Source: Zanthoxylum bungeanum (taxonomy: Eukaryota > Streptophyta > Magnoliopsida > Sapindales > Rutaceae). Taken from it: a DNA stretch of 64,000 bases. This document shows, piece after piece, positions 20,061-64,000 of this stretch. The notes under the pieces were generated by a model, which made no database searches, had not been told where the DNA came from, and was given only the letters and a program-made list of their open reading frames with translations. Positions within the stretch are counted from its first letter, which is position 1. Each line of letters opens with the position of its first letter. The DNA is taken from contig SKCR01033465.1 of NCBI GenBank assembly GCA_019454045.1, positions 1 through 64,000 on the forward strand, written 5' to 3'. The translations under genes and the position numbers were made by a program.

Positions 20061-20062
20061 AT

Positions 20063-22109: not shown

Positions 22110-22110
22110 A

Positions 22111-22123
22111 TGGCATCTAGAGC
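22111..22123 (+). promoter_or_regulatory. Primer-binding site of Copia B1 (variant)
   Basis: TGGCATCTAGAGC sits one base after the LTR end where A and C have TGGTATCAGAGC. It is recognisable as the initiator-Met site with a substitution and a small insertion. Confidence 0.75.
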
Positions 22124-24607: not shown

Positions 24608-25578
24608 TAGGGGTGAGCATCGGTTCCGGTTCTACCCGGAACCGGTTGGACCGGACCGATTTTTCGGGTTTGGAACCGAAATCGGTTGTAATCGGGTAGG
24701 TTCCGGTTCCAAATATGAAGGAACAGATTTTATCTGGGTAGGTTCTGGTTCCAAAATGGTCGGAACCGGAATCGGACCATGGAACCGGTTTATATGAACA
24801 TAAATTTTAAACATTTGGTGTTCATTATGCGGAACCGGTTGAATATATACTTCAATACATAATTATGGCTGAATGTCTATGGATTTTAGTATCTCTGAGT
24901 AAAATTCTGTTTCAGTGGCATTTGCTGATAAGAGTGTCTGATTAAACATCTGGTGATGGACAATTAGACGTTTGATTTTGTTTTTGTATTGGGTTTGAAT
25001 GCTTGAGTAACCTTGTGATTTAATGCAAAAGAGTGATATACAGTCGCTATAAAGTGGGTACATATACCAATGTTAATTGTCAAATATTGTATTTTATGGT
25101 CAATTTGTTTTTCTCTGTGCTGTTATTATTGATTGATGACTATATTTTATTCCTATGCTCGTTGAAATATTATGGAGTATGGAAAGTATGCAAAAGAGAC
25201 TGTACTTGCTTACTAATTAGACGGCAATATACTTTCGTGGCTTTATCATGTTTGTGAAAATTTGGCTTAGAAGTATTTCGTTTGATCAGATTTTAAACAT
25301 AGTGGGCTATTGCATAACCTTTCGTTCTTGAGCTTCCGCACTTCGATTTGATCCCCGTTTTTTCCTACGAACTCGTATCAGAATGTAGTTTTCATTAAAA
25401 TATTTTAAAATAGGGTAATTCGGAACCGGACCGGAACCGAATTGGAACCGAATAATAGGGTACCCTGTTTAATCGGGTAGGTTCCGGTTCCGGTTCCACT
25501 TAGTGCGGAACTGAATTTTTCCGGGTAGGTTCCGGTTCTATGCGGAACCGGAACCGAAACCGATTTTGCTCACCCCTA
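24608..25578. mobile_element. Non-autonomous hAT-type element with GGTTCCGGTTCC-rich ends
   Basis: Terminal inverted repeats are TAGGGGTGAGCA and TGCTCACCCCTA (perfect 12 bp), followed on both sides by subterminal GGTTCC/GGAACC repeats. That arrangement is common in plant hAT MITE-like elements. Flanking 8-mers GCTAGGAG and GATATTAG agree at only 5 of 8 positions, so the target duplication is poor. No transposase is present. It splits the leader/gag region of B1. Confidence 0.75.
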
Positions 25579-25599
25579 GATATTAGAGCATAATCTTTG

Positions 25600-28500: not shown

Positions 28501-28745
28501 GGAATAGTTCTGTTAGCAGTTGAGCTAGGCTTGAGCACAGGCTAAAGAATTAATGGTCTCATCAACGATCCAGATACATACTTCGACTATTCATCTGATT
28601 CGTTCGGATCATACATCGTGGCGATGTGATGATCGTATAAATCGCATCAGACGATAATCATGCAAATCCGCTGACGAAAGCATTTCTCAGCAGTTTGAGC
28701 CAACCTTACATAGTTCGAGTGTAAGACACTCGAGTGACTGGCTAT
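25600..28745 (+). pseudogene. Heavily decayed Copia B1 gag-pol
   Basis: Only short matched pieces survive. A gag zinc-knuckle-like piece lies near 25960-26000 (CLNCGKRDR), pre-integrase near 26100-26530, an integrase remnant 26560-27350 (including 'PPGT' near 26955), reverse transcriptase 27480-28080, and an RNase H remnant 28290-28700. Comparison with Copia A shows indels every few tens of bases and no long open frame. A polypurine tract, AAGTGGGAGAT, ends at 28761. Confidence 0.8.
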
Positions 28746-28761
28746 AGGCCAAGTGGGAGAT

Positions 28762-30808
28762 TGTTGGACAATTATGACCCATAACGTCACTATTTTTACA
28801 GATCATGGTGTTGTTGTACAAATTAACTATGTGACAAAGGAGATTGCACTCTTATCATTTGTGATTAGATCACCTAGATGTATAAATGATGAGAGGTCCT
28901 TGTGATTTGTTCCTGGACGGAGAATGATATGAGACAGTATCAGTCCACGTAGGATAAATCATTAAATATCCTTAGTCAGAGTATTATCGAGATTGGACAT
29001 CGATAAATACGTAAAAGACTAGTATTGCACTTGTGCGCGTTGTGAGGGCACAACGGCATAGTTCTCATATATTTGGGTATAGGATACTCATGCAAGTGTA
29101 ATAGGAGGTTGTGTTTTACCGATGGTACGGGAAACAGCTTCGCTCTGGATAGACCCCCTCAGAATTCCATTGGTAGTATGACTATGTGTCTATGGAAGTC
29201 TGAAATCAAGGTAGGTGTATTTGGTCTTAACCTGAGACTTGCACCGCTAATACTTGCGACAATCAATATACTTTGGTTGCGGTTGTCCAGGGCTTTAACA
29301 GGTTCTGTGTACGCCAATGCTGGGTATATTGAGAATCGTAGTGTGTTGGGTGTGATGTCAATACGGAAGTATCACTCCAGTCATAGTGGAGATGACGGTC
29401 ACGTAGGATACGGGACTGGTTCTCTTAAATACTGCAGCTATCGGGATAAAATGACAAGGTCATGTTTATCCGATTATAGAGACTAGTTACCAGACATCTG
29501 ACATGTGTTTCGTACGGGGCAGACACAATTCCAGCCCCAGGCCTAGCACATGATCATCCGATACTGGACCGAAATACGCAATACTACGTATACTACGCCT
29601 GATATAGATCATTTATTCCTGTAAGGATATTTCCGGAGAATTGGGTAGGCATGACGCTTTGCTAGAGGCCAACCTTGTCTTGTAAATCGGTATAAACGAA
29701 GTATGAGGTACTTACGTGTTCGGATAGTCTGACGACCGAATTTACTGCCAATATATCCGGGGATCTCATGGGTCGCTTCCCAAAGATTCACCGATGACGT
29801 ATGACTCGCACTCTAAATTAATCTGGGATTAATTAGAAGAGAGAGAAAATTAATCTGGGATTAATTGCGGAGATATTTTATCTGGGATAAAATATCAATA
29901 AAATAGAGATAACGATTAATTTGGAATTAATCGATTAATTAATATATTTGATATATTGAACGAAATTGGATTTCGACGCGGAATTAAAATTAGATTTTAA
30001 TTCGGGCGAACGAATTAATTTAGAATTAATTCGTTAGCGACGTGAATAGTGATTTTGCTAGGCGTAATCATTTAATTACGACGCAACGGAAAATTCGTTA
30101 ATTTAGAATTAGCGAACCCGAGCCCGAGATTATTTGCGAGCGCATTCGCATTTCGAATTCGAATGCGGCACGCAAGTCAAATCAAGCGTCAAATCGCTAG
30201 TCGCAACTAGTGTCACATCATTCGTCAATCAAGTGATGGATGTCTTTCACTTTGAGTGATTGACGCAAGTCACTATTCATGGTGATGTGAGTTGATGGAG
30301 GTTGATGGGCTTTAATTATTTGACTTTTTGAAAGCCAAATTCAAGTGAAATGAATTTGAAATTCACATGAGTGTATAAGACACACTTTAGCCATCAACCA
30401 AAGTAATCTCTCTCTCACATCATCTCTTTCTTCTTCACGCCTATGGAGGGGCAATATGCTCACTGGTTTTCTGTCAAAACCGTGAGTTGGGGAGCAAGAG
30501 TTTGTGGTTTTTTTGGCAAAAATCACAAGAGCTAGGACTCCGAGAGACATGCGAAGGTGATAGGGAAGTCCACCCATGAGCCGGGAATCGTTCGAACGAA
30601 GCTTGGAGCTTGAAGAAGGACCAAAACCGAGCCAAACCAGTGGACTGCTGCTGTGAACTGCCGTGACCAGTCCAAGAGAAGAAAATCAGATTTTGTTCAT
30701 CGAAGCGTCGCTCAACCGATCGATGTGAGTATTCCGCAACTTCGTTGATTTGTATTCACACATATTTCATGCTTATTATTGATCTTGGGACCTTAATAGA
30801 AACCAACA
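28762..30808 (+). repeat. 3' LTR of Copia B1
   Basis: 2047 bp, TGTTGGACAATTATGACC to AACCAACA. It is nearly identical to the 5' LTR over most of its length. It is followed by GCCAC and the rest of the Athila LTR. Confidence 0.93.
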
Positions 30809-31018
30809 GCCACGTGTCACAATCCTACGGTGCCGAAAATCACTATCGACACGTGTCACCACGTCATCACCACGTCACTGCCACGTCAGCGCAATTATTG
30901 AGTTAATCATCCATATCGCCACGTCATTGGATAAGAATCTCAGCGGACTAACCAGAAGCTGACACATGTCGGGTCGCGTGAAGCTTGCGCGTCGCGACAC
31001 AGAGACCCTATCAACGCC

Positions 31019-31025
31019 TATAAAT
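31019..31025 (+). promoter_or_regulatory. TATA box of the Athila 5' LTR
   Basis: TATAAAT in 'aacgcctataaattcagc', shortly after the CpG palindrome and G-box cluster. The identical arrangement occurs in the 3' LTR at 44937-44943. Probable core promoter for the element's genomic RNA. Confidence 0.55.
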
Positions 31026-32384
31026 TCAGCTCGAGATTTTAGTTTCAGATGTACCTTCCTCTTTGAATTCTCTTATGTAAATAGAGAGTTTTATATCTAG
31101 TTTTCTTTAAATTCAGTTTTGTAATTAATTTTAATTACGTTCTGTAATAATAATTTACTTTCTTTACTTTTTCAGTCTTTACTATTCAGCTATGAGGAGG
31201 TAACTTCTCACTGCTAGGGTGAAAAGTAAAACTTTTATAACTGCTATTTAGATTAATCTCCCTTAATTATAATATATTCACTATTTAAAATTTGACTTAA
31301 CAAGGATACCGCTATATTGGCCGGTTGGTAATCAATTATAAACTGGTTTTAATCTGACTAAGCATGGCTACCGCCTGGTTGGTCGGTTGGTAATATACTG
31401 CCTTTATGGCAGGTCAGACTTAATTTGACTTAATCATATTACCGCCTATATGGCTGGTTGGTAATATTATCACAAGTTAATATATTATATTAAGGGAGAT
31501 ATCTAAATTAGTAGTGGTAAAAGTAGATCCTTTAACTCTAGCATTTTATTTTATTGTAATTTTACTTTTCGGTATTTACTTTGCCGCTTTACTTTTCAGC
31601 ATTTTATGTCTTTTACTTTTAAGTTTTTTTTACTAGCCCTAGTTATGTGTCGTAACTAAGTTAGTTATCTAGGGTTGTGATGAATTTTAATATCACCGGT
31701 TTATAAGGGGTTATTTTATAGTTTGGGTAATTTAAAGGTTTACTTATTAAGTCTTAAGCTTAATGCGTCTTGTTAACTGGCCACTAATAAGATTGATCTG
31801 GTAAATCTAAAATAAACTTGACAAATGAATTTTAGGTTTCAGCCTTAGACTTAATAGCTCACGATCTTCCTTGAGGATAGATAACCCTTTAATAGATTTC
31901 CTTACAGGATAGACATATACATGTCGGGCGGGGTAACATTTATTGGAACTTAATCTTAATGAATTCAGGTAATTTGGTTGTCAAAGACATATGGTTCAAT
32001 TGGGTTATACTGAGTATTTGCGTCTGACCTTCGACAGAGGCTTTCGCATAATTTCGTGTTCCAGGTTAGTAAACCAATTTATTACACAAACATTAAATAA
32101 TCACTTCATCTTTTAAAAGATATTAGAAAGATTCACAACCCTAGATAGTTCCTTAATATTGAATTTTCTTAAACCTACTTTCGAGCAATTTTATTTACTT
32201 GTTTTTAAGTTTAAAATCATCACCATTTCAAATCAATCAATCAACCTGTTAGATACTAGTAATCATTTGACCTCATAAAATTAATAGATTAGGTATTAAG
32301 TCCTCGTGGGATCGATACTTTTTATACTACTTGAACGATACGTGCGCTTGCGTTATACGCGTGTGATTACGCCGGTCAAGTTTT

Positions 32385-32403
32385 TGGCGCCATTGCCGGG
32401 GAC
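32385..32403 (+). promoter_or_regulatory. Athila primer-binding site (Asp-tRNA type)
   Basis: TGGCGCCATTGCCGGGGAC lies six bases after the LTR end at 32378. This is the characteristic Athila/Tat primer sequence and helps assign the lineage. Confidence 0.88.
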
Positions 32404-32510
32404 TTATTTATCTTTTACTATTAGTTTAGGGGTTAGGTACATTTACTTGTATCTAATTTCTTTTTACTTATTATTTCTGTTTTCTTGTGTTTCAGGTTCT
32501 CAAACACTAC

Positions 32511-34763
32511 ATGAGACGAACCAGAAGCTTTGAACTCCGACCACTTGACCCAGTGATTGAAAGAACCATCGGACAGTTGAGAAGGGAAATGAGTGAAGGC
32601 CAAGAAGCTTTAGTCAACATGGAACCTGAACCTTTGGAAGTTGCACCACTAATACCCATTCGAGACAGAACCATTCCGGTGGTCGACGGCTTCATTTCCT
32701 GTATTGTACTTTCTCCCTTACCAGCAAATGCGTGTGACATCAAAACATGCATTCAGATGATTCAGCAGTCAGTGCAGTTTGGGGGAAAAAAAACTGAAGA
32801 TCCTAATACCCACATCAGTAACTTCCTGGAAGTTTGCTGTACTTTCAATTACAACCGAGAAGCTGAAGAAGCAATGAGACTGCGGGGTTTTCCATACTCC
32901 TTGAAAGATAGAGCTAAAGCTTGGCTACATTCACTACCAGCGGGTTCCATCACAACTTGGAACACTTTAGCCACCGAATTTCTTGCAAAGTACTTTCCAC
33001 TAGCTAGAACTGGAAAGCTGACGAATGACATCACATCCTTTGTGCAACAAGATTCGGAAACTCTCTACGAAGTTTGGGAAAGGTACAAAGATTTACTCCG
33101 GAAATGTCCTCACCAAGAGATTCCAAAATGGCTTCAAGTCCAAACTTTCTATAATGGACTTTCTGGACTGATGAGAACCACAATTGATGCTGCTGCTGGA
33201 GGAGCTTTGATGGCAAAATGAGAAGATCAAGCCTGTGACCTAATCGAAGAAATGGCCAACAATAATTCCTTGTGGCCAACAGAAATGAGCATGATCCAAA
33301 GAATTGCAGGAATTTATGAAGTTGGAGCCAATACAGCAGTCAACGCCAAGCTGGATCAGATATGCAAATTCATGGAGACTCTTACCACTAGATCCACAAG
33401 TTCACCATATTGAGGAGCACCAGAACCAAACCAACTTGAAGAGACGGTGAATTATGTTAACAATTTCAACAGACAGGGGAATAATCCATATTCCAACACC
33501 TATAACCCAGGGTGGAGGAATCATCCGAATTTCTCATGGAGCAACAATTCAGGGCAAAAGAACTATCCACCACCTGGATTCCAGCAACAGAACAAATGCC
33601 AGGTGCAGGCAAATGAACCAGGAATAGCAGAAGTGCTGGCTCAGTTAAAAAAATACGATGCTATGTTTCAAAGCCAATCTGCTTCCATCAAAGCACTGGA
33701 GAATCAAATTGGACAACTGGCCAATGCTCAGAGTTACAGATCGCCAGGTAATCTTCCTAGTAACACAGAACCAAATCCAAGGAACCGAATGAAGGAGCAA
33801 TGTCAAGCCATCACCTTGAAAAGCGGTACTGAAATCAACAAAGATGTTGGAATCAAGGCAACAATTGAAGAACTTCCAAAAGATGCAGTTCCACAGATGG
33901 AGGGAAAATAAACAAAGGAAAAAGAAAAAGATCAGATCATTCCACCTCCATCTTTTCCTCAGCGTCTTCAGAAAAACAAATTGGACAAACAGTTTGCTTG
34001 TTTCTTGGAGGTTTTCAAAAAACTGCACATCAACATCCCATTTGCAGAAGCCTTGGAAGAAATGCCCAGCTATGTCAAATTCATGAAAGATATTCTTTCA
34101 CGAAAATGAAGATTGGGAGATTACGAGACAATAGCATTGACGGAAGAATGCAGTGTAATTATTCAAAGGAAACTTCCCCCGACGTTGAAAGATCCTGGCA
34201 GTTTTACTGTCTCATGCACCATTGGAGAACATTACATCGGTAAGGCTTGATGTGATTTAGGTGCTAGTGTTAACTTGATATCTTTTTCTATTTACAGGAA
34301 ACTGTAAATTGGAGAAGCAATGCCTACCTCAGTCTCGTTGCAACTTGCTGATCGAACACTCGCATTTCCAAGAGGTGTTGTTGAAGATGTGCTGGTCAAA
34401 GTCGATAAACTGATTCTCCCAGCAGATTTCATCATCCTTGACATGGAAGAAGACAAAGAAGTACCTATCATTCTTGGGAGACCATTCTTGGCTACAGGTA
34501 AAACTGTAATTGATGTGCAAAAAGGAGAACTGACCATGAAAGTGCATGACCAAGAAGTTACCTTTAATGTTTTCAAAGCCATGAAATTCCCGAGCGATGA
34601 AAAGGAAGAAGAGTGTTTCAGAGTTGATGTTGTTGATAGTATCGTTCAGGATACTGAGCCAAATCCCACGGATACACTTGAAGCTTGCATCACCAACATG
34701 ACTGACAGCGAGCTAGATACTGAAATCCTGAAATGTATCAACTACCTTGACAAACCATTCTGA
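32511..34763 (+). pseudogene. Athila gag and protease
   Basis: A single frame from the ATG at 32511 carries the Athila-type gag (residues resembling 'AKAWLHSLPAGSI', 'WERYKDLLRKCPHQ'), an Asn/Gln-rich stretch, and the aspartic protease. DLGAS is at about 34254, and 'PIILGRPFLATG' marks the protease end near 34470-34500. In-frame stops occur at 33219, 33411, 33909, 34107, 34248, 34305 and 34761, yet no frameshift is seen over 2.2 kb. Gag would form the particle and protease would cut the polyprotein. The upstream CAG|G at 32494 resembles a 3' splice site. It is decayed by point mutation. Confidence 0.9.
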
Positions 34764-34859: not shown

Positions 34860-36803
34860 CCGATCCATCTCAGGTATGCATTTCTTGGAAACTCTTCTGA
34901 ATTACCTGTTATTATTTATTCTTCACTAACATTGTAGCAGGAAGAAAAGTTAATAAGAGTGCAATTGGTTGGACTATAGCAGACATTCGAGGCATTAGTC
35001 CATCATTTTACATGCACAAGATTCTGATGAACGATGAGTACAAACCCACAGTGGAGCATCAATGGAGACTCAATCCAATCATGAAGGAGGTCGTGAAGAA
35101 AGAAATCATCAAATGGTTGGATGTTGGCATCATTTACCCCATCTCAGATAGCACTTGGGTGAGTCTTATTCAGTGTGTGCCAAAGAAAGGAGGAATCATT
35201 GTAGTCACAAATGAAAAGAACGAGCTAATTCCAACAAGAACGGTGATTGGATGAAGAGTATGCATGAACTACCGGAAGCTGAACAAAGCCACAAGGAAAG
35301 ACCATTTTCCACTACCATTCATTGATCAGATGCTAGACAGACTGGCAGGACATGAGTACTATTGCTTTCTGGATGGATATTCAGGATACAATCAGATTGC
35401 TATCGCCCCAGAAGATCAGGAGAAAACCACTTTTACATGTCCGTATGGTACTTTTGCTTTCCGCAGGATGCCATTTGGATTATGTAATGCCCCTGCCACT
35501 TTTCAGCGTTGCATGATGGCCATCTTCTCAAACATGCTGAAGCTGAGTATGGAGGTATTCATGGATGATTTTTCTATGTTTGCAGACTCTTTTGACCACT
35601 TCTTGTAAAATTTGGAACATGTGTTACAAAGATGTGAATATACCAACCTAGTACTCAACTGGGAGAAATGCCACTTCATGGTGCATGAAGGCATTGTTCT
35701 TGGACACCAGATCTCACAAAAGGGAATCGAGGTAGACAAAGCAAAGATCGAAACAATTGAGAAATTACCTCCACCAACATCAGTCAAAGGGATTCGGAGC
35801 TTTCTTGGACATGCTGGCTTTTACAAGAGATTTATCAAAGACTTTTCCAAGATTGCTAAACTTCTATGCAATCTTCTGAAGAAGGATGTGTCTTTCAACT
35901 TCACCAAAGAATTCCATGAAGCTTTTGAGATCTTAAAACAGAAGCTGGTCTCTGCCCCCATCATTGTAGCACCAGACTGGACCTTTCCATTTGAGGTGAT
36001 GTGCGATGCTAGTGATTTTGCTGTAGGTGCATTTTTGGGACAACGCAAAGCAAAGAGTTTCCACACAATTAACTACTCCAGCAGAACTTTGAATAAAGCT
36101 CAACTCAACTACACAACCATCGAAAAGGAGTTGCTCGCAGTTGTGTACGCTTTTGACAAATTCTGCTCCTATCTGCTGGGTCCCAAAGTAGTAGTCTACA
36201 CAGATCATTCAGCAATCAAATACTTGATCACGAAGAAAGATGCCAAACCCAGATTGATCCGTTGGATACTTCTTCTGCAAGAATTTGACGTGGAGATCAG
36301 AGACAAGAAATGGACAGAGAATCAGGTGGCAGATCATCTATCGAGGCTTGAGAATGGAGAAACAGCTGGCAAAGAACTGACAATCAAAGAAACTTTTCCA
36401 GATGAACAGTTGTTTGCCATGAAACAACAAGATGTCCCTTGGTATGCTGACTATGTCAACTTCATTGTATCAGGAAAATGGTCATTGGAATGGACAACTC
36501 AGCAAATGAAGAAGTTCTTCAAAGAAGTCAAGCACTATGTTTGGGATGAGCCGTACCTGTTCAAACGATGTGCTGATCAATTACTGAGGTGTTGTGTTCC
36601 ACATGAGGAAGTCAACAGTGTTTTGTAGCACTGTCATTCATCACCATATGGCGGACACTTCAGTAGGAATAAAACTGCAGCCAAAGTTCTACAATCAGGT
36701 TTATTCTGGCCCACTCTTTTTAAAGTTGCTTATCTTTTTGCTCTTCAATGTGACAGGTGCCAGAGAACAGGAAATATTTCGAGGAAAAATGAAGGACCAT
36801 TGC
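34860..36803 (+). pseudogene. Athila reverse transcriptase, RNase H and integrase zinc finger
   Basis: From about 35012 the frame differs from that of gag-protease. It runs through reverse transcriptase ('YPISDSTW', 'CFLDGYSGYNQI', 'PFGLCNAPATFQRC', catalytic FMDD at 35558-35569), RNase H ('[16 protein letters not shown]', '[14 protein letters not shown]', '[10 protein letters not shown]') and the integrase HHCC finger (from about 36635, with 'CDRCQRTG'). Nonsense codons at 35252, 35606 and 36626 break it. The stretch ends where D1 inserted at 36804. After removal of D1 plus one ATTGC copy (3622 bp) the integrase frame resumes at 40426. Confidence 0.9.
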
Positions 36804-37697
36804 TGTAGGTATTGCATTTTTGCATGTGAAACCCGATGATGAGTCTCAGTTGGAGGCACTACCTTTTAAGTCACGGAAGCCGCGGGAAACGGAAGTCGGA
36901 AGGGAGGAGTCAAGAATTGACTCATATTCGGATTAAGTTCATTGGTTTAGCTTCGGGTTACTTGTTGGTTTTCCGTTTTAAAAATTATTCCTGGCCCAAA
37001 ACACTCACAAATCACCTAACCTCGGCCCAAAATCCCCGCAAGCCCCTTGGCCTTGACCTAAAACCCCCGCAAGCCCACACACCTAGCCCACACAAGCTAA
37101 CCACCCAACCAAAGGCCCACACGCCCACAACAAGGCCCACACGCCCAATCACCCTAAATTACACCCAAATTAAATAAAATATTAAATAAAATATTAATTA
37201 GATAATATATTTGAATTAAATAAAATATTTAAACCATTTACCAATTAAATAAAACATAATATATTAACTTCCTAACTAAACAAAATCACATACTAAATTA
37301 AAAATATGATATGCCTAATTAAAATCAATAATAACAAATAAGAAAAATTGACTTCCTAATCTAACAAATTAAATGCCTAATCCTAACCAATCAAATATAT
37401 TGTATTCCTAATTTGAACCAAATTTGTCCCCCCTCAATCTAATCTTTTCCATGTTGGATACCAAATCAAATCCTCCCTTTAATGCGAAATCATATTCCTT
37501 GTGAGACAAGGAGGAGCCCTAGCCATTCTCTATATAACCATCACCCAAAGCTCTCCCCCTCTCCAACACACACGTTTTTTGACAAGAAGTCACAAGCAAA
37601 AAACAACAACAAATCCCTTACAAGTTCACGCATATTACACCAAAAAATAACAAAAATTTCTCTTCATCTCCTTCCCCTACTTGACCGAAAAAACACA

Positions 37698-37815
37698 GCC
37701 CATAAGCCTCCCTATATCACCGAAACACAGCCCCATAAGCCTCCCTATATCACCGAAACACAACCCCATAAGCCTCCCTATATCACCAAAACAACAGCCC
37801 CGTAAACCTCCCTGC
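37698..37815 (+). repeat. 33-bp tandem repeat in D1
   Basis: 'GCCTCCCTATATCACC' starts at 37706, 37739 and 37772, a 33-bp period, with a degenerate fourth unit. Because 33 is divisible by three, the open frame 37482-37805 shows an 11-residue repeat (KPPYITETQPH). The frame lies in an LTR and is not considered a gene. Confidence 0.85.
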
Positions 37816-38512
37816 AGTACCGAAAAACTGCACTCCTATTAGCCCTCAAAACAGTCCCTAAAATCCCTAAACCAGTAACATAAAAACTGCACTTATAACC
37901 CTTAAATAATCACACAAAAACTGCACTTAAAACCCACAAAAAACACCCAAAACAGTCCCATAAACACCTGAAACAGTGACCAATAATACGACAGTGAAAC
38001 CGCGAGGAAACAGCAGTAAAACGGAGTCAAAACAGTAGCTTGAGCAGTGAAACAGCGAGGTAAAACGCAAACCAGTGAACCAGAAAAGTTGCGGTGTGAT
38101 AGCCCTTCCGACGGCCGTGAAACGTGAGTTCGAAAGTCGACATAAAATGTTATACCTGAGGGTATTTTCCACATTCGTTTTCTATTTTATTTGTATTATT
38201 TATTGAGTATTGCTTGCATGATTGTTATGTTGAAATGCATGTTGTGGACCTTGAGTAGATAAATATGCATGGATTATGAGATATTGTATGTTGTGGCTTT
38301 GGAATAAAATGAGAGATGTGTCAACTCTCGCGGTACATCGGATGGAAACCCGGACATAAATTTCATAGCCGATTCCGAATGGACGGTAGTATGATCTGTA
38401 CTCAGGATACAACTCCACGTACCGCTTAAGTAAACGACACTTTCTTTTGTTTTATATTGCTTTGATTTATTTATTTTTCGTCATTTGAATTCCGCACATT
38501 ATTTGTATGCAT

Positions 38513-39170
38513 GATACAATCGAGCGCATGGGCTTAGTAAGTCGGATTAAAGGTCCCCTATTTGGAGGGGTTAAAATCCTTTACCACAATGCTTTGCCGC
38601 TCCGGTTGATGTGTGTTCGGTTGGATATAAGATATATTCAATCAGGCATACTAAGTTTGATGTGATTGCCTTTATTTTTGTATGTATGATACAATCGAGC
38701 GCATGGGCTTAGTAAGTCGGATTAAAGGTTCCCTATTTGGAGGGGTTAAAATCCTATACCACAATGCTTTGCCGCGCCGGTTGATGTATGTTCGGTTGGA
38801 TATAAGATATGTTCAATCGGGCATACTAAGTTTGATGTGATTGTCTTTATTTTTGTATATATGATACAATCGAGCGCATGAGCTTAGTAAGTCGGATTAA
38901 AGGTCCCCTATTTGGAGGGGTTAAAATCCTTTACCACGATGCTTTGCCGCGCCGGTTGATGTGTGTTCGGTTGGATGTAAGATATGTTCAATCGGACATA
39001 CTAAGTTTGATATAGTTATCTTTATCTTTGTATGCATTATAACGGAAGGCGCATGGGCTTATTGTGTTGGATTAAAAGGTTCTCCGTTTAGGAAGAAAAG
39101 CCTAAAAGGCTATCTTTACCACGATATTTGCTGTGTCTTTCATCTATTGATTGCATCGTTTATCCCTGTC
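38513..39170 (+). repeat. 175-bp tandem repeat in D1
   Basis: 'GATACAATCGAGCGCATG' starts at 38513, 38688 and 38863, exactly 175 bp apart. A degenerate fourth unit starts at about 39038, and a more distant echo lies near 39860-39960. D2 lacks this expansion, which together with the C-rich block explains much of the 1.2-kb length difference. Confidence 0.9.
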
Positions 39171-39224
39171 TTGGCTCGACCTATTGTCATTGGTGTACCC
39201 ATACTCCCAGCCCATCACACCTTG

Positions 39225-39840
39225 AAGCCCCCTTAGCGCACACGCACAAAGTCCCCTGCCTTCACGCTAACCACTCCTTCAGCCACGCACCACACAAAAA
39301 ACCATAAGCAGCTCTCTTGCATTAACACGTAACCCTCACGTCCTTAAGCCATTCACGTCAAACTGCACCCATCCTTCACGCCGAATCCATGCAAACAGCC
39401 CCTAGACTTCACGGTAAATAAGCCCCTTTACAGCAGCTCAACTCTCACGTAAGACCCCTCATCAACTATCGGCCACCCTAGCATCATCCCTCACTGCCCT
39501 CATAAAGAACCTCACCGCTTCAACCCCTCAACAGCTGCCTCACCTCACGTCCTAGCCTCTACACTCCACAGCCCTTCACGCCTCACGCATAGCCATGCCA
39601 CAAATCAGCCAACCTTAACTGCCCTATTCCCTCTTCACACTAAACACACGCAGATCACAGCCCTAGCCCCTCTCGGCAGCAGCCTAAATCACCAGTCCTA
39701 GCTCACGCCAAACTGCCCTCAACACCACACGGCCACAAGAACCCTTCTGCCACTTCATTGCCTCATAAAACCCTAAACTGAACCCTTCATGCGACAGCCC
39801 CTTGCACTCACGCACACACTCACAACTCTCACATAAAGCT
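39225..39840 (+). other. C-rich, G-poor block of D1
   Basis: The plus strand is strongly C-rich and G-poor, with many loose repeats of (C)CTTCACGC or CCTCACG. D2 has a comparable block at about 48830-49760. No open frame or known motif array accounts for it. Confidence 0.6.
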
Positions 39841-40425
39841 AATTATACCATTCATGCATGTATTATGAAATCTCATATAGTCATTCTTATCTTTGTATGC
39901 ATCATAGTGAAAAGCATGTTTATCCCATTGGTTACATCATTTACCTTCGTCTTGGCTCAACGTATCGTATTACAATTCATGTATCTATGTCATGATAGCA
40001 TTTGAGTATTATTTCTTGTGGTATATAATATGCCAATGAAGTTGTATGTTCGTTGCTACTTTGATGTACTTTCAAGCATGAAATCTTAGATGTGAAATAT
40101 ATGTAAATTTAGGTGTAAGTTTTATCTTGTACATGTGAATTTAGAAGCATGATACTCTTGGAAATAAGTGTTACTTAAACTTGATTAAATTATTACATAA
40201 ATCCTTTCATTACAAGTGACATAAGTAAGGGATCATTCCGAACCCAACGGTTTGAGGTCTTCACTTGCGAGGGGTGAGTGCGGCCTTAAATCTCATTTTC
40301 CCAGTTCACACCGGGTGGCGACTTCATTATTCTCCGGTTTAGTCCCCCGTGGCTACTCCGTACTCCCAACTAGGCCACGAGCCTAGGACAGCATGCGTCA
40401 TCCAGTTTCTGTGTCCCACAATTGC

Positions 40426-41312
40426 AAAACATTTTGGAAGTAGAGATATTTGATGTGTGGGGTATTGATTTTATGAGACCCTTTGTTCCATCATTCAGAA
40501 ACTTGTATATCCTGGTTGCTGTAGACTACGTCTCCAAATGGGTCGAAACAATTGCACTGCCATCCAATGATTCAAAAGTGGTGATCAAATTCCTAAAAAA
40601 GAATATTTTCACTCGGTTCAGAACACCTCGGGCAATCATCAGCGATGGTGGCACACATTTTTGCAACAAATACTTTGATGCACTCCTATCCAAATATGGA
40701 GTTACTCACAAGGGTGCCACTGTTTACCATCCACAGTCAAATGGACAGGTTGAAGTTTCAAACAGAGAAATCAAAAGAATCTTAGAGAGAACTGTTGGAT
40801 CAACAAGGAGGGACTGGTCAAGAAAACTGGATGACGCATTATGGGCCTATCAGACAGCTTACAAGACACTCATTGGTATGTACCCATATCGTATGGTGTT
40901 TGGGAAAGCATGTCATCTGCCAGTTGAGCTTGAACACAAGGCGTACTTGGCACTGAAGAAGTTGAATCTTGATCCACAAGCTGCAGGAGAGAAAAGACTT
41001 CACCAACTCAACGAATTGGAGGAATTTCGCCTACAGGCTTATGAAAATGCCAGATTGTACAAGGAAAAGACCAAGAAATGGCATGATCGAAAAATAGTGC
41101 GCAGACAATTGGAACCAAGACAGCAGATGTTGTTGTACAATTCAAGGTTAAAACTTTTCCCTGGAAAGTTGAAATCAAGGTGGTCAGGTCCTTTTGTGAT
41201 CACTCAGGTTTTACCATACGGAGCTGTTGAGTTACTGGATCCCAACACCAACAACACATTCAAGGTTAACAGTCAGCGTGTCAAGCACTACTGGGGAGAA
41301 TCATTTGAGTGA
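40426..41312 (+). pseudogene. Athila integrase core and C-terminal domain
   Basis: An uninterrupted ~295-codon stretch continues integrase after D1. Catalytic acidic residues are visible in 'WGIDFM', 'ISDGGTHF' and 'EVSNREIKR', giving a D-D-E core. A C-terminal domain follows with '[22 protein letters not shown]', a GPF-type module that binds DNA. It would catalyse cDNA insertion in the nucleus. This part is intact, but the gene is cut by D1 and by upstream stops. A stop at 41310-41312 is followed by the Athila block 'GGGAGGCAACCCA'. Confidence 0.92.
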
Positions 41313-41486
41313 CAAAAAGAAAGTGTCACACTTTCAGATCCAGCCTAACGTTCGAGAAGTCACGTCTAGCTGACGACGTTAAACTTAGTGCTCGCAGGGA
41401 GGCAACCCATGCAATTTGTGTATATATTATGATCTGGTGTGTTTTATTTTTATGTGTTTAATTTTTGCAGGTAAAGTCATTTCACG

Positions 41487-42035
41487 ATGGAAGAAGTTCT
41501 CGCAAATCTTCACAAGCAATTTCCTTCTCTCCCTCAAAAATCTCTGATGAAAGTCTACAAAGCTCACTTGGAACGAATGAGATTACTGATGATCAAAGGT
41601 ATTCTTACTGACATTCGTTGGATTATTGAAGCATAGGTCCGATTGGCAGGTGAGTCTTCTGAATCTTTTATTTCACATCTGTCTGGTTTTGGAAGAAACA
41701 CCTATGCAAAGAAATGTAGAGCTAAGCAAATGGTTGTTTGTTACAAATATGCACGCTGGAATTACAATACTCGTTGTCGTTCTTTAGGAATGATGTCTGA
41801 TAATCGCGAAGATAAAATTAAATTCATTAGGGATGGCTTGAGTAAGGAGTCTTTAGATGATATATCTTCGACTCTTGAGACGCATCCCAGTGGATATGTT
41901 CATATAGCCATCCGTAAATTACATACACAATTCCAAAAGGAAAGACAACAGTTAAGTCTCGGGAATCTGACTCAAAAAGACTCTGTTTGCCAATTTATAA
42001 GAAAATTGGATGGGAAGCTTGTTCCTGACGCATAG
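41487..42035 (+). pseudogene. Accessory ORF of unknown function downstream of integrase
   Basis: I do not recognise this gene. From the ATG at 41487 the frame runs 182 codons to the stop at 42033-42035, broken only by TAG at 41634. The predicted protein is soluble, basic and without a signal peptide or membrane span. It has a cysteine-containing stretch (residues C..VVCYKYARW..TRC) and a helical-looking C-terminal half. A pyrimidine-rich CAG (41468-41470) lies 16 bases upstream and resembles a 3' splice site. Position after integrase is where Athila elements sometimes carry env-like ORFs, but nothing envelope-like is visible. It could be lineage-specific or a second captured gene. Confidence 0.6.
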
Positions 42036-42287: not shown

Positions 42288-42894
42288 ATGGAAGCCACTT
42301 CAAGAAGACGAGTTGAAAACATCTGTGTGTTTTGCGGTACTAGTGTTGGTGTTAAGCCACAATAAGTAACAGCAGCACATGAATTGGGTCGAGTCTTAGC
42401 TGCAAGGAATAAGCACTTAGTATATGACGGAGGCAATCTTGGACTAATGGGGATCGTTTCAAAGGCTGTACAGGAAGGAGGCAGTCAAGTCTTGGGAATC
42501 ATCCCAAAACCCTTGGCGGAGGCAAATCTTATTGGACCATCAAACGGAGAAGAGCTAATTGTGCCAGGTATGTCTGAACGACTGGTAGAAATGATTAACC
42601 GTGTTGATGCTTTTATTGCTTTGCCAGGTGGCTTGGGTACATTGGAGGAAATTTTTACAGTGTTATCTTGGGCAAACTTGAACATACACCAGAAACCGCT
42701 TGGACTGTACAACGTTGAAGGATTTTTATGATTTTCTTTGTGTATTTCTTGATGATGCCCGGAGAAATGGGTTCGTGACAAAACCTATGAAAGAGCTCCT
42801 CTTTACTGCCAGAACTGCTCCGGATCTAATTGACCAAATCTTAGCCTATGAACCACAAATTGACCCTATTATTTCAAAGATAAATTGGTTTTAA
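42288..42894 (+). pseudogene. LOG: Captured LOG cytokinin-activating phosphoribohydrolase
   Basis: The sequence encodes a nearly full-length LONELY GUY protein (lysine-decarboxylase-like/LOG family), which converts cytokinin riboside monophosphates to active bases in the cytosol. ATG at 42288. Visible motifs: 'ICVFCGTS' (residues 12-19), 'LVYDGGNLGLMG' (44-55, where LOGs usually have GGG), 'VLGIIPK', 'MSERLVEM' with the catalytic-type Arg, and the diagnostic PGGxGTxxE box as PGGLGTLEE (113-121). The C-terminal third continues one frame over to a stop at 42892-42894. Defects are TAA at codon 26 (42363-42365) and one extra T in the run 42723-42727. No introns are present, although plant LOG genes usually have several, so capture from processed mRNA is likely. 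It sits on the element's sense strand. A pyrimidine-rich TACAG at 42231-42235 lies upstream. Confidence 0.9.
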
Positions 42895-44233
42895 CTTTTA
42901 ACTTTTCGTGTAGAATTTCAGTTAACGAGGTACTATCTTCATAGCTCTTCTTCTACTGTTTAAGACATTGGGGACAATGTCTCATTTAGGTTTGGGGGAG
43001 GGAATTAGTTGATTAGTATCTTGTTTTTAGTTGTGTGTTGTTTTTATTTTTAGCCCAAAATTTTTCGAAAAATACAAAAAAAAAAAAAATTGAAAAAATT
43101 ACAAAAAATTTTTGCGTTTTTGTTTTTATTTTGACTAAAAAGGTGAAATTGGTAAGAGATAGCTGTGTAAGGAGTTCCCACTCCTGATACGTATTTCAAC
43201 CCATTTTCGAAACAAGTTAATTTTTGTTTATTTCCTTTTGAATTATTTAATTTGTGAATTCTCTATAAAATTGACTAAAATGGATCTTCATATGCTCAGT
43301 TGGTAGGTATTATCAACATGTATGGTAACATACAGACATGAGATGTAATTGAAAAGTTTGTAATATTCAGTGCTCTAGTTTAATTGGAGGAAGCATCTAT
43401 GAAAAGCATTGGAGTAAAAAAAAAACATATGAGATCCGAGTTATTAAGTCTGTGAAGGTGTTTTAACACCTAGTGCCCTAAAGCCAACTGGTTTGGGAGT
43501 CACTGGCCCAAAGCTCGCTACATGGATAAAAGATGCTGCAAAAATATATATATATGAAGTCTGAGTAATTAAGTCTGTAGAGGTGTCTTAACACCTGGTG
43601 CCCTAAAGCCATCTGATTTGGGAGCCACCGACCCAACACTCGCTACATAGATGTAAGATATTGTATATAAATAAATAAATAAATCAGAAATCAAAGAAAA
43701 AAAATCAGAAAAATCAGAAAAATTATTCCATTGCTACAAAAGGTGTGAATTCTGATAAAATTTTATGACAAAAATATTACTCTATTATCAACTGTACTTG
43801 TGACTGTTGTAGGCAAAAATGAGTTGATTAATATTTTGTTGGCTGTGTATATGGAGAATGGTAAATATAATCAGAGAATTTACTTATTCAATAATTTAGA
43901 AAGAAAGAAAACAACTAGTGACTTGGAGTAGAAGTTTAACTTGATTAGTCACTAACTTCTTTATTCTCTTTTCTCTTGTCTTTTTGCTTTTGTGTGCATT
44001 AGTTTTACTATCTTTTTATTTTTGTAAAATATTTGTGGGTATCATTGATGTAAACCATGACGAGACTACAACTCGTCCACTAGGGACACTAGGGGTTTAA
44101 AGGCTTGTTGTATATGCTAAATGCAACTGTGATCCCTACGAAAGTGGCTTAGTTAAATTTTATTTTAAAGATGTTTATATTATTTTATTCTGTGTTTTGC
44201 TCGAGGACTAGCAAAATATTAGGTTTGGGGATG
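42895..44233 (+). other. Athila 3' non-coding region and polypurine tract
   Basis: Contains the Athila-typical 'ACATTGGGGACAATGT' hairpin (about 42966-42981) followed by 'GGTTTGGGGGAGGG'. Next come A-rich sequence with AAATTTTTCGAAAAAT (about 43062-43077), a two-copy repeat (listed separately), and a second purine tract AGGTTTGGGGATG (44221-44233) directly before the 3' LTR, the probable plus-strand primer. No open frame is supported. Confidence 0.75.
43431..43660 (+). repeat. Two-copy ~125-bp direct repeat
   Basis: 'AAGTCTGT' at 43446 and 43571 opens two related units. Both contain 'AACACCT.GTGCCCTAAAGCC' and end near 'CTCGCTACAT.GAT'. They differ by about 15%. No function is apparent. Confidence 0.8.
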
Positions 44234-46299
44234 TGATGAGTGATAATTATATCACTATTTCTCACTCATTTAACTTAATATTTTGTATAGTTTCTTGAGT
44301 TTTGTGAATATTTTGATGTGTTTTGTGTTATTTTGTAGATAAATAAAGTTTCAGGACTCTCTTGAGGTGATTTGGGGCTAAAATAGTGAAAAACGGACAA
44401 AAGGGCAATTTGGTAATTTTTCACATCGCGACGCCTAACATGCGCCATTAGCTGCTAACGTGCGCCGGGGGACACGTGTCAGAATCTAAAAAGTTTGACT
44501 TGCTAACATGAGCCTGCCACGTGTCAACATCACAGCCAATCCGCTAACGTGCGCCGTGACACGTTTCATCATCCTATGGTGTCGACAATCGCCATCGCCA
44601 CGTGTTGACATGTGTCATCTCGCGTGTCTGACACGTCATCGTCCACATCAGCAGTTGACCGAGTCAACTCACCACGTCACTGCCACGTCATCATCAGCCT
44701 ATCACAACGCGCCACATGTTACAATCATACGGTGTTGACAATCACTATCGCCATGTGTCGCCACGTCATCACCACATCACCGCCATGTCACTGCCACATC
44801 AGCGCAATTATTGAGTTAATCATCCATATCGCCACATCATTGGATAAGAATCTCTGCGGACCAACCAGAAGCTGACACGAGTCGCGTCGCGACGCGTGAA
44901 GCTTGCGCGTCGCGACGCAGAGACCCTATCAACGCCTATAAATTCAGCTCGAGATTTCAGTTTCATATGTACCTTCATCTTTGAATTCTCTGATGTAAAT
45001 AGGGAGTTTTATATCTAATTTTCTTTAAATTTCAGTTTTGTAATTATTTTTAATTACGTTCTGTAATAATAATTTACTTTCTTTACTTTTTCAGTCTTTA
45101 CTATTCAGCTATGAGGAGGTAACTTCTCACTGCTAAGGTGAAAAGTAAAACTTTTATTACTGCAATTTAGATTAATCTCCCTTAATTATAGTATATTCAC
45201 TATTTAAAATTTGACTTAACAAGGATATCGCTATATTGGCCGGTTGGTAATCAATTATAAACTGGTTTTAATCTGACTAAGCATGGATACCGCCTGGTTG
45301 GTCGGTTGGTAATATACCGCCTTTATGGCAGGTCAGACTTAATTTGACTTAATCAGATTACCGCCTATATGGCTGGTTGGTAATGTTATCACAAGTTAAT
45401 ATATTATATTAATGGAGATATCTAAATTAGTAGTGGTAAAAGTAGATCCTTTAACCCTAGCATTTTATTTTATTGTAATTTTACTTTTCGGTATTTACTT
45501 TACCGCATTTACTTTTCAGCATTTTATATCTTTTACTTTTAAGTTTTTCTTACTAGCCCTAGTTATATGTCGTAACTAAGTTAGTTATCTAGGGTTGTGA
45601 TGAATTTTAATATCACCGGTTTATAAGGGGTTATTTTATAGTTTGGGTAATTTAAAGGTTTACTTATTAAGTCTTAAGCTTAATGCTTCTTGTTAACTGG
45701 TCACTAATAAGATTGATCTGGTAAATCTAAAATAAACTTGACAAATGAATTTTAGGTTTCAGCCTTAGACTTAATAGCTCACGATCTTCCTTGAGGATAG
45801 ATAACCCTTTAATAGATTTCCTTACAGGATAGACATATACATGTCGGGCGGGGGTAACCTTTATTGGAACTTAATCTTAATGAATCCAGGTAATTTGGTT
45901 GTCATAGACATATGGTTCAATTGGGTTATACTAGGTATTTGCGTCTGACCTTCGACAGAGGCTTTCGCATAATTTCGTGTTCCAGGTTAGTAAACCAATT
46001 TATTACACAAACATGAAATAACCACTTCATCTTTTAAAAGATATTAGAAAGATTCACAACCCTAGATAGTTCATTAATATTGAATTTTCTTAAACCTACT
46101 TTCGAGCAATTTTATTTACTTGTTTTTAAGTTTAAAATCATCACCATTTCAAATCAATCAATCAACCTGTTAGATACTAGTAATCATTTGACCTCATAAA
46201 ATTAAAAGATTAGGTATTAAGTCCTCGTGGGATCGATAATTTTTATACTACTTGAACGATACGTGCGCTTGCGTTATACGCGTGTGATTACGCCGGTCA
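44234..46299 (+). repeat. 3' LTR of the Athila element
   Basis: 2066 bp from TGATGAGTGATAATT to ATTACGCCGGTCA, followed by the duplication GTCAC. It is uninterrupted and serves as reference for the split 5' LTR. It contains the G-box and GCGTCGCGACGC palindromes (44884-44895 and 44907-44918) and a TATA box at 44937-44943. Open frames at 44508-44875 are U3 sequence, not genes. Confidence 0.93.
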
Positions 46300-46660
46300 G
46301 TCACATTATGACTTTATATTTTTTTTACCGACCGTACAATATGACTATCAATTGAGTAAGTGATAATTTAGTCATGGGTGTGTCTCAATCACATTTATAA
46401 CCTCAGTTATATTGTTATCATGTTTTTCACCTATGACCACACGATGACTGCCAATTACGAGTCACACTATAACTATTAGTTTGGTGACTGATAATTTAAT
46501 CATTCGTATGTCTCATTCACATTTGTGGCCTCAGTTACATTGTGATTGTATTTTTTCACCTATAGTCATACAATGACTATTAATTATGTGTGTGGCTGAG
46601 TGTGTATTTTTCAGGCATATACACAATGTGACTATCAGTGGTTTCATCCACATACTAAAA
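46300..46660. repeat. Right part of the diverged repeat at the Athila target
   Basis: 'ATGACT(A/G)(T/C)CAATT'-like blocks recur near 46342, 46445, 46574 and 46628. 'GTGACTGATAA', 'TCTCA.TCACATTT' and 'CCTCAGTTA.ATTG' recur between them. Spacing of 100-130 bp suggests an old degenerate tandem repeat. It continues 19440-19591. Confidence 0.55.
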
Positions 46661-51608: not shown

Positions 51609-52997
51609 TATTGGAGTTTACTAAGGTCCCAAGGATCAATAAATAAACATGAACATGTGTGAATACAATAGAGAAAGTCACGGAATACTCACATCTATCG
51701 TTTGAGCGACGCTTTGAAGAACAAAAATTTCTTTTCTGCTCCTTGTGCATTCGGCAGTGACAGTGAGCAGCTCACTGGTTTGGCTCGATTTTGGTCCTTC
51801 GTCAAGCTCCAAGCTTCGTCGAACGATTCCCAGCTCATGGGTGGACTTCCCTATCACCTTCGCATGACTTCTTAGTGTGCTAGCACTCCCGATTTTGCCA
51901 CAAAATCGCAACTTTTGCTTCCATTTTCTTCTTGAAACTCGGCAGTGGAGAGAGAGAAGAGTTGTAAATGTGTGTTATCTTTTGGTAATTAATTTTCTAA
52001 AAAACATATACCAAAAAATTTTGGCTAACAAAGTCAAACCAATTAAAGCTTAACACACATGACCTATTCACATCAATCACAAGTTGTCAAGTCACATCAC
52101 TCAAAGTGATAAGTGATTTGACGCTTGATGCGACTAGCGATTTGACGCTTGATTTGACTTGCGTGCCGCACTCGAATTCGAAATGCGAATGCGCTCGCAA
52201 ATAATCCCGGGCTCGGGTTCGCTAATTCCAAATTAACGAATTTTCCGTTACGTTGTAATTAAATGATTACGCCTAGCGAAATCACTATTCACGTCGTTAA
52301 CGAATTAATTCTAAATTAACTCGTTCACCCGAATTAAAATCTAATTTCAATTCCGCGTCGAAATCCAATTTCGTTTAATATATCGAATATATTAATTTAA
52401 CCGATTAATTCCAAATTAATCGTTATCTCTCTTTAATTGATATTTTATCCAGATAAAATATCTCCGCAATTAATCCCAGATTAATTTTCTCTCTCATCAT
52501 TAATTAATCCCAGATTAATAAAAGTGCAAGTCATACGTCATCGGTGAATCTTCGGGAAGCGACCCATGAGATCCCCGGATATGTTGGCAGTAAATTCGGT
52601 CGTCGGACTATCCGAACACGTAGTACCTCGTACTACGTTATACCGATTTACAAGACAAGGTCGGCTTCTAGCAAAGCGCCATGCCTTCCCAATTCTCCGG
52701 AAATATCCTACAGGGATAAAGGATCTATATCAGGCGTAGTATACATAGTATTGCGTATTTCTGTCCAGTATCGGATGATCACATGCGAGGCCTGGGGCTG
52801 GTACAGTGTCTGCCCCGTACGAAGATATATCGGATGACAAGCAACTAGTCTCTTTAAATGGATAATCATGACCAAGTCATATTATCCCGACGGTTGCAAC
52901 CTTTTTAGAGAACCAGTCTGTATCACTGCGGATCATCACTCCATATGACTGGAGTGATACTTCCGTCTTGACATCACACCCAAACACACTACGATTC

Positions 52998-55400
52998 TGT
53001 AGGGGTTATTTAGGGGGTGAATCCGGTAACGCAGCGGAAGCGGTGAAAATCCGATTTTCAGATTTCAAAACTTTTTCTCGGATAAATTAAATAAACATAT
53101 TTATTTAATATTCCAATAATCAAATTATGAAAATAAATTCAATAAAACATTTTTAGGTGAATTTACCGAAATACCCTTGCTTTGTATTTTTTTTGTCCAT
53201 TTTAGTCCGAAATTGATCCAATCAATTTTGAATGATTCTAAATCATTTCTAAGATGAACTTATGATGTTCAAAACATCAAAACACCAAAGCAACCAAAAT
53301 CCCCAATTATTCCTCACAAAGCCGAGAGCACCATTTGGTGCCAAATTTGTGCATTTTGCACTTTCATGCTTCAAGACACATCCAAATGATATCCAATCAA
53401 CATGAAACTTTATATGCATCATATACACACCAAATACACAACATATATGAAAACCCCAAATTTGGAGTTAGTCATAAACCCTAATTTTTCAATTTCCTCA
53501 AATTGGACAAATTAGGCCATAACATTAAATCAATTGTTTCAATCATCAATCTTACATCCAATTCAAGTCTCAACACAATGAAACAACTCAAGATCAAATC
53601 TAGGTCATTTAAGAGTGGGTCAACAACTCTAGATTAGCAACTTGGTTTCAAAACCTTAAAAGAATCCTTACAACTACAATAGTCACAAGTTTCCTTCACC
53701 ATACATGCTCAACACTTCTATCAAACTTCCACCACAAAAACACAAAGAAATAAAGAAAGAAATAATCTAAGAACATCACATGTTGAAGCCTTGAACCTAA
53801 GGAACATATTCCTCTCTAATAGTAAGTTGGAAAAACTTACTAAATTCCAAGCTATCTTTGATTTTTGTCTTTCTTTTCTCAAGCTTCCTTTGCCTTTCTT
53901 CAATGGAGTTTATATGATAAAGTGTATTAGGTTAAGTGTATCATGAAATGAAAATCAATTTATACTTGTTTCATTGGCCTTTGGCCGAAAATGCTAAGGC
54001 AAAAACAGGAAATTAATTTCAATTTCATTTCAAATTCATTTGGTCAACTTGACAAATATCTTATAAACAACTTTATTAGATATTTATTTTGGTCAACAAA
54101 TGCAACTAATGTCATTTACTTTAAATATCCTAACATAAGATATTTATATTTTAATTAATTTAATCATTTAACAATTAAATAATTAATTAATTAATCAAAT
54201 ACAAATATATTAAATATATGTATAATATTTACATTAAATATTAAAAACATATATTCATTTAGGAAATAAGTCAAATAACTCATTTTGACTATTAATTAAT
54301 GTGTATTTAAATTAATCAAGTATTAAATGTAAATACACAATAATTAAGAAATGACTATCTAGTCTCTTTAGCATGTATCTTGCGTTTAACTATTAAACGA
54401 CTTTATAAATAATCAATATTATTTATTTATGTTGCTCTAGTGCTCAACGAGTATGTTTCATTATTGAGACTCTCTAGGTTCAGGTATATCCGTCACGAAA
54501 TCAAATTTCGTGTCCATAATCTATCCACCCGTAGATTATGACGATCACGGATAATCTCGCTGAACCATACAGGTCGAGGTCATGGCAAATGTATAATTCC
54601 TCCGTCACAGGTATCCGGATAAATCCCAGAGATATAGATGTAAACGTCAAATCTCTATCGGGATTATCCAGTCGACTATTCTATTAGCAATCTCAAAAAG
54701 AATGTTTAGAACTAGCTTCTAAACTTTACCACGGGCCCATGGTTTTATCTGATTGCTAATCATATGGACTACCTATGCTCTGGTACACAGAACTGACGGA
54801 TCCTATCTTGATACACATAGGACACCCTGAGGATCTATCTACACCCAACGAAAGGCGGAGGTCTGATCTTAATAGATCGGTGACGTGACTGCCGTCTAAG
54901 TGTAGAAGATGTCTCATGTGCCCACAATGGCATCTCAAGTCTAAGAATCACAAGTGCTACTCAACCCAAGAAGATTCTTATTGACGCTGGTGTACCATCC
55001 ATTAAGAATCTTCGGTGAGTCGTTCAGTGTTTATCCGCTATAAACACCTACACGTCTATACTAGTCTCCAAGACTAATGGTTCATTGAGAAACCATTGGA
55101 ATCATATATTCCAGTATACGACATGTACCGGTCTCAACGGGTTTACTATACTGACCAAGTAGTGTAAACCTTGACCAGGAACTGTCTGAGAATGACAACG
55201 TCATGATACATCTCAATGTCCGTTGCGACGCTTTTGCAACTGTATCATGACTAATCATTCTAGGGTCATTACGTCTTTACCATATAGAAAGATAGATTAT
55301 ATTATAGAAACTGCATATATTATTCATAATAATAATGTTTTACAGAAGTATTTAACAGAAATACAACCGGGAATTGGCGCTCTGAGCACCAACCCCAACA
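52998..55400 (-). repeat. 3' LTR of Copia C
   Basis: Plus-strand form runs TGTAGGGGTTATTTAGGG to CACCAACCCCAACA. It is followed on the right by AAATCTCCCACTTG, the reverse of a polypurine tract, which identifies it as the element's 3' LTR. Confidence 0.95.
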
Positions 55401-55414
55401 AAATCTCCCACTTG
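55401..55414 (-). promoter_or_regulatory. Polypurine tract of Copia C
   Basis: On the minus strand CAAGTGGGAGATTT directly precedes the 3' LTR start TGTTGGGG. It shares the GTGGGAGAT core with B1. Confidence 0.88.
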
Positions 55415-59365: not shown

Positions 59366-60125
59366 CGCCAATCTATCATATAGATCACGAAAAACGGTTA
59401 GCAGAAATAAAGCAGTTTCATATAATATCAAAAGCATAAACTAGATCATGGATTTTTAATCTAATATGCCCCTCCCACTAAATCATGCAATACTGTAATC
59501 CCAAAACAGAATACAAATATTTAATAATTAAATTAAATACTAATAGTGAAAAGTGGATCCCGTGAATATATTTCGGCTCACAGCAGAGGCACGGTCTCTT
59601 CTACGTATATTCATCAGGTAGACAACTCATTTGTCAATCATTCACTAATGACTCCTAAGTACCGGTCCTGGCCGTTTCTCGTTGTCGCTGCGAAGGCAGG
59701 CCCACAAGGAGACGTACCAAGGTTAAACTCGCCAATGATATACTCAAGTTACTTACGTAATCCTGACAGCTAGGGCACGTTCAGAATTCCGCTTTCGCTT
59801 GAATTTATCTAGTATCTGATATACATCCGGTATAAATAAATCTTTATCGGCTACACCCTCACAGCAGAGGCACGGTCTCGGATGTAGTCACAAAGATATA
59901 TTCATAAACCGTATTGACAAGACGGACCATATAACATGCATCAATTACATAATTACATTTAAACCTTATTATTAGGGATTTTCCGCTAAGTGTCATACAC
60001 CCTAAATCTAACCAGTTTAGATCCTAATAAGCATGCACAAAGTCAAGAAAACATGATTAAACATTGATTCAATGAAGGCTAATCATTTTAGGTGGCCTAG
60101 AATCAGACTCGCTCTGATACCATTT
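59366..60125 (-). other. Leader of Copia C between primer site and gag
   Basis: Non-coding. A 22-bp direct repeat (starting CTCACAGCAGAGGCACGG) occurs at 59577-59598 and 59858-59879, 281 bp apart. The copy of the primer site nearest gag is at 60111-60122. The open frame at 59546-59773 is not considered coding. Confidence 0.6.
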
Positions 60126-63817: not shown

Positions 63818-64000
63818 GATTCTTAATATACCCAGCATTGGCATACACAGAACATGTTAAAGTCATGGACGACCGCAACCAAAGTATATTGATTGTCGCA
63901 AGTATTAGCGGTGCAAGTCTCAGGTTAAGACCAAATACATCTACCCTGATTTCGGACTTCTATAGACACATAGTCATACTACCAATGGAATTCCGAGGGG

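Follow-up and report, generated by a model that had tools for sequence, protein, structure and literature searches.

A retrotransposon of Athila type in Zanthoxylum bungeanum carries two genes between its integrase and its 3′ long terminal repeat (LTR): a derivative of the cytokinin-activating LOG family and a virus-like gene, here called CRP. The copy analysed lies within positions 1 to 64,000 of contig SKCR01033465.1 (assembly GCA_019454045.1), and this whole stretch is referred to below as the window. We read the element as a decayed representative of an Athila-type lineage with many copies, in which the place of the env-like open reading frame (ORF) is taken by CRP and LOG, an accessory cassette that favours transposition, and we give this reading about an even chance of being correct. 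The features on which it builds are as follows.

19592–46299, + strand: Athila-type LTR element (Ty3/gypsy), delimited by its LTR pair and by a GTCAC target duplication at 19587–19591 and 46300–46304
19592–20062, + strand: 5′ LTR, first part, 91% identical to the 3′ LTR
20063–30808: nested LTR element inside the 5′ LTR, with its own LTRs 96.8% alike and GCCAT/GCCAC at its ends
30809–32378, + strand: 5′ LTR, second part, 95.6% identical to the 3′ LTR
32385–32402, + strand: tRNA-Asp-like primer binding site (PBS), TGGCGCCATTGCCGGGGA, 6 bases past the 5′ LTR
32487–33221, + strand: gag ORF (Pfam Retrotrans_gag, E 8e-21)
35612–36628, + strand: RNase H region of pol (Pfam RT_RNaseH, E 1e-34)
about 36806–40424: second insertion, splitting the integrase region by our own reading
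40422–41312, + strand: integrase core and C-terminus (Pfam rve, E 8.4e-16)
41487–42035, + strand: CRP gene, 182 codons with an in-frame TAG near codon 50, from homologues and the Pfam matches of aligned members
42288–42894, + strand: LOG-derived gene, broken in this copy, from Pfam, PDB, intact relatives and genome copies
42895–44233, + strand: 3′ spacer, non-coding, reaching the 3′ LTR and common to 30 of 30 LOG-selected loci including the window
44234–46299, + strand: 3′ LTR, from comparison of the LTR pair

By Pfam matches, gag lies upstream and RNase H precedes integrase, the order of gypsy elements. We take the PBS sequence to be complementary to tRNA-Asp. The element probably belongs to the Athila lineage, a name drawn from the PBS, the anatomy and the initial annotation, although a tRNA-Asp-like PBS and an extra ORF between pol and the 3′ LTR are traits not unique to Athila. 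K2P distances to the 3′ LTR are 0.075 (469 sites) and 0.033 (1567 sites) for the two parts of the 5′ LTR. The element is flanked by a tandem repeat with a period of about 128 bp (46336–46586) and seems to have inserted into an array of such repeats. As to the rest of the window, the insertion that splits the integrase region contains 175-bp tandem repeats and resembles 48.3–50.7 kb, and two 2.4-kb direct copies (52990–55406 and 61400–63823, 98.7% alike), one of them adjoined by a 1.3-kb tandem-like stretch near 59960–61894, are probably the LTRs of a younger element. A scan of the window for tRNA genes, run with the bacterial code, found none.

The similarity to LOG, claimed from the letters alone in the initial annotation, is borne out. 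A 115-residue open piece matches Pfam Lysine_decarbox (E 4.8e-28) and Arabidopsis LOG3 (AtLOG3, PDB 2a33; E 2.3e-34). The gene contains both ICVFCGTS and PGGLGTLEE, the latter an instance of the family signature PGGxGTxxE. At E ≤1e-10 there are 3489 relatives; the first among the best 120 of these, P0002, is an intact protein of 217 residues, 90% identical to the window LOG, whose structure model (pLDDT 84, pTM 0.81) has the LOG fold and finds AtLOG3 2a33 as its best PDB match (target TM 0.95). The window copy itself is a pseudogene. An in-frame TAA stands at codon 26, the reading continues beyond it to about residue 147, and a frameshift near 42725 follows, with loss of the C-terminal tail including its LxLxL; the element copy is dead, and a normal LOG cannot be read from it. 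This broken state, and the virus-like gene beside LOG, had been overlooked in the initial annotation. When 717 AG sites are ranked by a crude acceptor score, the one before LOG comes 16th and the one before CRP falls outside the best 20, and with ranks this weak we claim no splicing.

The LOG piece was searched against the 3.96-Gb assembly of 51,709 contigs that contains the window, and at least 150 matches were scored, the window's included, which excludes chance similarity; among these best-scoring matches, 117 of 150 lack a stop in the matched part by hand count. Thirty loci, including the window, were picked by LOG protein score. Integrase protein was found in 26 of them and CRP protein in 27, while all 30 have the 3′ spacer; the order integrase–CRP–LOG–spacer–3′ LTR recurs in three of three longer stretches. 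In this sample, biased by its selection, PGGLGTLEE is kept by every one of the 29 sister copies, and 28 of the 29 retain the R of MSER. A second sample, independent of LOG, comprised 29 copies picked by the non-coding spacer at 43100–43900. LOG was detected by DNA in 25 of these 29 (in one only in part), and is thus a regular component of the element; in several of these LOGs PGGLGTLEE, or else the E or R of MSER, is altered, and only 7 of 24 usable copies are fully open. CRP protein was found in 17 of the 29. Six copies (L057, L058, L061, L062, L064 and L067) form a subfamily, 87–92% alike upstream of LOG, in which LOG is present and tblastn finds no CRP, short remnants of CRP DNA persisting in three. 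Given this subfamily and the 17 of 29, the CRP–LOG pair is not obligatory. Elsewhere, three queries confirmed no relatives in IMG/VR, and GTDB contigs returned four bacterial LOGs and nothing else.

These results uphold two earlier proposals, that a sense-strand LOG lies between the integrase and the 3′ end of the element and that it belongs to, and multiplied with, an Athila-type element. They also bear on whether a host LOG gene was retrocopied late and independently into this single element; the sign named for that was a LOG occurring once, bordered by a target duplication and a poly-A of its own. LOG instead has its 150 matches, both of its flanks are shared by many sister copies, and no poly-A stands directly at its end. 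Part of its leader is similar to N-terminal extensions in two outside relatives, P0008 (15 residues, E 0.004) and P0010 (E 3e-07, a value to which LOG itself contributes). We found no evidence for a retrocopy and, regarding it as highly improbable, rejected it.

Most element LOGs end in a distinctive tail. Among the listed relatives of at least 195 residues, 65 of 85 carry an LxLxL ending, usually behind a basic stretch, and the combination occurs in none of the 120 AtLOG3-like proteins listed. The 20 without LxLxL include all five listed Xanthoceras proteins, and some others are near misses. GKRRR and INLDLNL, or motifs close to them, are retained by most element copies in the Z. bungeanum genome, and residues 204–217 of the P0002 model have pLDDT below 50, as in a disordered tail. 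EAR motifs follow the LxLxL pattern; most of the relatives, though not the window copy, have it in such an accessible tail. An element LOG with this tail might be nuclear and might recruit a co-repressor. It is conceivable, if unlikely, that the LOG fold now serves a purpose other than cytokinin release, for instance as a nuclear scaffold that brings in a TOPLESS-type co-repressor through LxLxL. The restriction of the tail to the element relatives and its predicted disorder would suit such a role, whereas PGGxGTxxE and nearby residues, which vary little or not at all across 31 aligned relatives, would be needless for a mere scaffold.

For the ORF at 41487–42035, which separates integrase from LOG, 305 homologues reach E ≤1e-3, many of them 182 residues long; those named in the list of 120 belong to Populus, Xanthoceras, Acer, Rhamnella and Parasponia. 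In an alignment of 32 members (the window piece and 31 of the 120 listed homologues), 28 match Viral_NABP and 25 match Carla_C4 at E ≤1e-3, with a best value of 1.1e-8. The window piece alone, with its one in-frame stop, reaches E 0.043 for Carla_C4, which is below the threshold. Through the profile matches of its relatives, CRP is probably a homologue of the nucleic-acid-binding proteins of carla- and allexivirus type. Its structure model is poor (pLDDT 62.5), and a Foldseek search with it against viral models gave no match at E 1e-3; ranks 2–15, none of them at that threshold, are all flexivirus proteins, 13 of these 14 named as silencing suppressors or as nucleic-acid- or RNA-binding. Two pairs of LOG and CRP relatives agree in contig size and source (P0052/P0267, 4511, jgi; P0081/P0295, 8723, ena), which suggests that each pair sits on one contig. 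P0052 and P0081 fall in branches of the LOG clade other than that of the window, so the CRP–LOG pair is probably old.

Purifying selection acted on LOG and CRP during some or all of the spread of the family. For LOG, 24 usable copies of the 29 picked by the spacer give a dN/dS of 0.435 (0.322–0.579) over 217 codons, all intervals here being codon resamplings that ignore the shared ancestry of copies. The value is 0.416 (0.289–0.608) in the seven fully open copies and 0.443 (0.322–0.593) in the 17 interrupted ones. L050, L052 and L065, where LOG is absent or truncated, were left out; with them, 27 copies give 0.611 (0.503–0.752). Values of 0.154–0.163 from the LOG-selected copies (0.154 for the searched part) were set aside in favour of the spacer-selected sample, because those copies had been picked by LOG protein score and the values are biased. 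Codons 148–217, which lie outside the query, give 0.555 (0.339–0.906) in the LOG-selected copies and 0.528 in the 17 open ones, with an interval that reaches 1 (0.298–1.018). CRP, by which no copy was picked, has a dN/dS of 0.411 in 27 copies including the window and 0.416 (0.281–0.630) in eight uninterrupted copies. These ratios bear on a simpler account, in which LOG and CRP were captured and amplified with the element and are of no use to it. The dead window copy is what one would expect of such passengers, as are the 17 of 24 interrupted LOGs and the 12 of 29 spacer-selected loci, truncated or nested in some cases, in which tblastn finds no CRP. Yet both genes have ratios below 1 in samples not picked by the gene concerned, and the tail is kept in most full-length relatives listed (65 of 85), and we consider that they are quite unlikely to be mere passengers.

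The LOG-selected copies also suggest a history that differs along the element. Compared with the window over the last 528 bases of the integrase DNA, the 26 loci that have it were sorted by identity into sets of 7 and 19, and over those bases the sets differ by 24.5%, against 8–9% within sets. For gap1, gap2, LOG and the spacer, the distance between sets lies within or close to the values within them, and for CRP it is 10.7% between sets and 7.0% and 11.7% within them. Steps of 60 bases place the end of the split at 41268–41327, where the integrase has its stop; this alignment looks unreliable over its first 120 bases. Among the LOG-selected copies, the best explanation is that the 3′ cassette was swapped between two integrase backbones, as judged from these distances.

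Where LOG came from was approached through its host relatives. A C-terminal AtLOG3 probe finds host exons that in L070–L077 are 88–94% identical to it, from probe residue 13 or 14 to 61, and that in L070 and L071 are bounded by TTTCAG and GTAGTA (AG / GT). Element-like matches, 46–51% identical to the probe, run on continuously across the place where those exons stop, in keeping with the earlier proposal that LOG is intronless. L068 and L069 (68% to the probe) are also continuous there, so one missing intron site is by itself no proof of processing. As a side observation, L068–L079 comprise many host LOG exons, several on near-identical contig pairs, as if from haplotypes or duplicated parts of the genome. 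In a tree of 114 sequences (the window LOG, 85 relatives, 25 of the 120 listed AtLOG3-like proteins and 3 bacterial LOGs), the window and its 85 relatives are split from the AtLOG3-like and bacterial proteins with support 100/99. The capture of LOG looks old, the cellular outgroup in this tree being the AtLOG3-like clade; as this is the only plant outgroup, another cellular LOG clade could be nearer. LOG would have entered the element long ago through a spliced host mRNA.

Under the accessory-cassette reading, intact element LOGs would still release cytokinin bases, while CRP would bind nucleic acid and suppress silencing or serve as a transcription factor. The most likely use of the two proteins would be to bring about a dividing, less-silencing cell state in which transposition is favoured. 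The LOG fold, the kept motifs, the dN/dS below 1, the tail, the Pfam matches, a cassette independent of integrase type and the silencing suppression described for carlavirus CRPs argue for this; the small number of open LOGs, the motif changes, the presence of CRP in 17 of 29 copies, the window's E of 0.043, the poor CRP model and the lack of a viral fold match at E 1e-3 speak against it. A bolder version is possible but doubtful: a transferable host-manipulation cassette, pairing a virus-type protein, either a suppressor of silencing or a transcription factor, with a nuclear cytokinin activator that recruits a co-repressor, both selected and swapped between backbones, the cassette aiding its own amplification through hormone state and silencing and recording gene exchange between flexuous viruses and retrotransposons. 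If true, it would resemble the accessory genes of complex viruses. Plant retrotransposons bearing enzymes of host physiology are rare, and LOG and CRP could both point to cell division. With an abundant family, open copies and measurable purifying selection, the steering of cytokinin level or silencing by a retrotransposon becomes testable.

Steinbauerova et al. (2011) reportedly found two Athila-like elements similar to LOGL4. The initial annotation knew of no LOG-bearing Athila element, and this novelty does not stand: the accessible text of PMC9289625, citing the same authors, describes a YgdH/LOG domain in LTR-element consensuses of Citrus and Populus, so that a LOG-bearing element is already a known kind. 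What seems new is the CRP–LOG pairing, the LxLxL tail and the 3′ cassette on two integrase backbones. We found no earlier recognition of these in a literature search that mostly fell outside subscription papers and did not address the tail or the exchange by name.

The Citrus and Populus elements are, like ours, Gypsy-type with a LOG-family domain, but the accessible text of PMC9289625 makes no mention of CRP, a tail, a selection test or backbone exchange. The AlkB-bearing Gypsy elements of Phalaenopsis, in the same portion of that source, are likewise plant Gypsy elements with an added enzyme domain, one also carried by some plant RNA viruses; they differ in the domain, in having no second gene there described and in a demethylase activity in vitro, whereas the window element is described from its genes. 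Calypso and Diaspora, according to the available part of PMC1142308, use a tRNA-Asp PBS 5 bases past the LTR, and Athila, Calypso and BAGY-2 have, as the window element does, an extra ORF between pol and the 3′ LTR; theirs is env-like, whereas ours is replaced by CRP and LOG. Among viruses, carlavirus CRPs act as silencing suppressors, as stated in the part of PMC12172455 available, and an endogenous betaflexivirus replicase is described for cucumber in that of PMC3136472. The element CRP differs from the cysteine-rich proteins of carlaviruses and allexiviruses in being a retrotransposon-encoded protein of 182 residues whose likeness comes from sequence profiles, yet it shares with them two Pfam profiles on one stretch, basic residues and cysteines, and so connects the 3′ ORFs of Athila-type elements with the accessory genes of flexuous RNA viruses.
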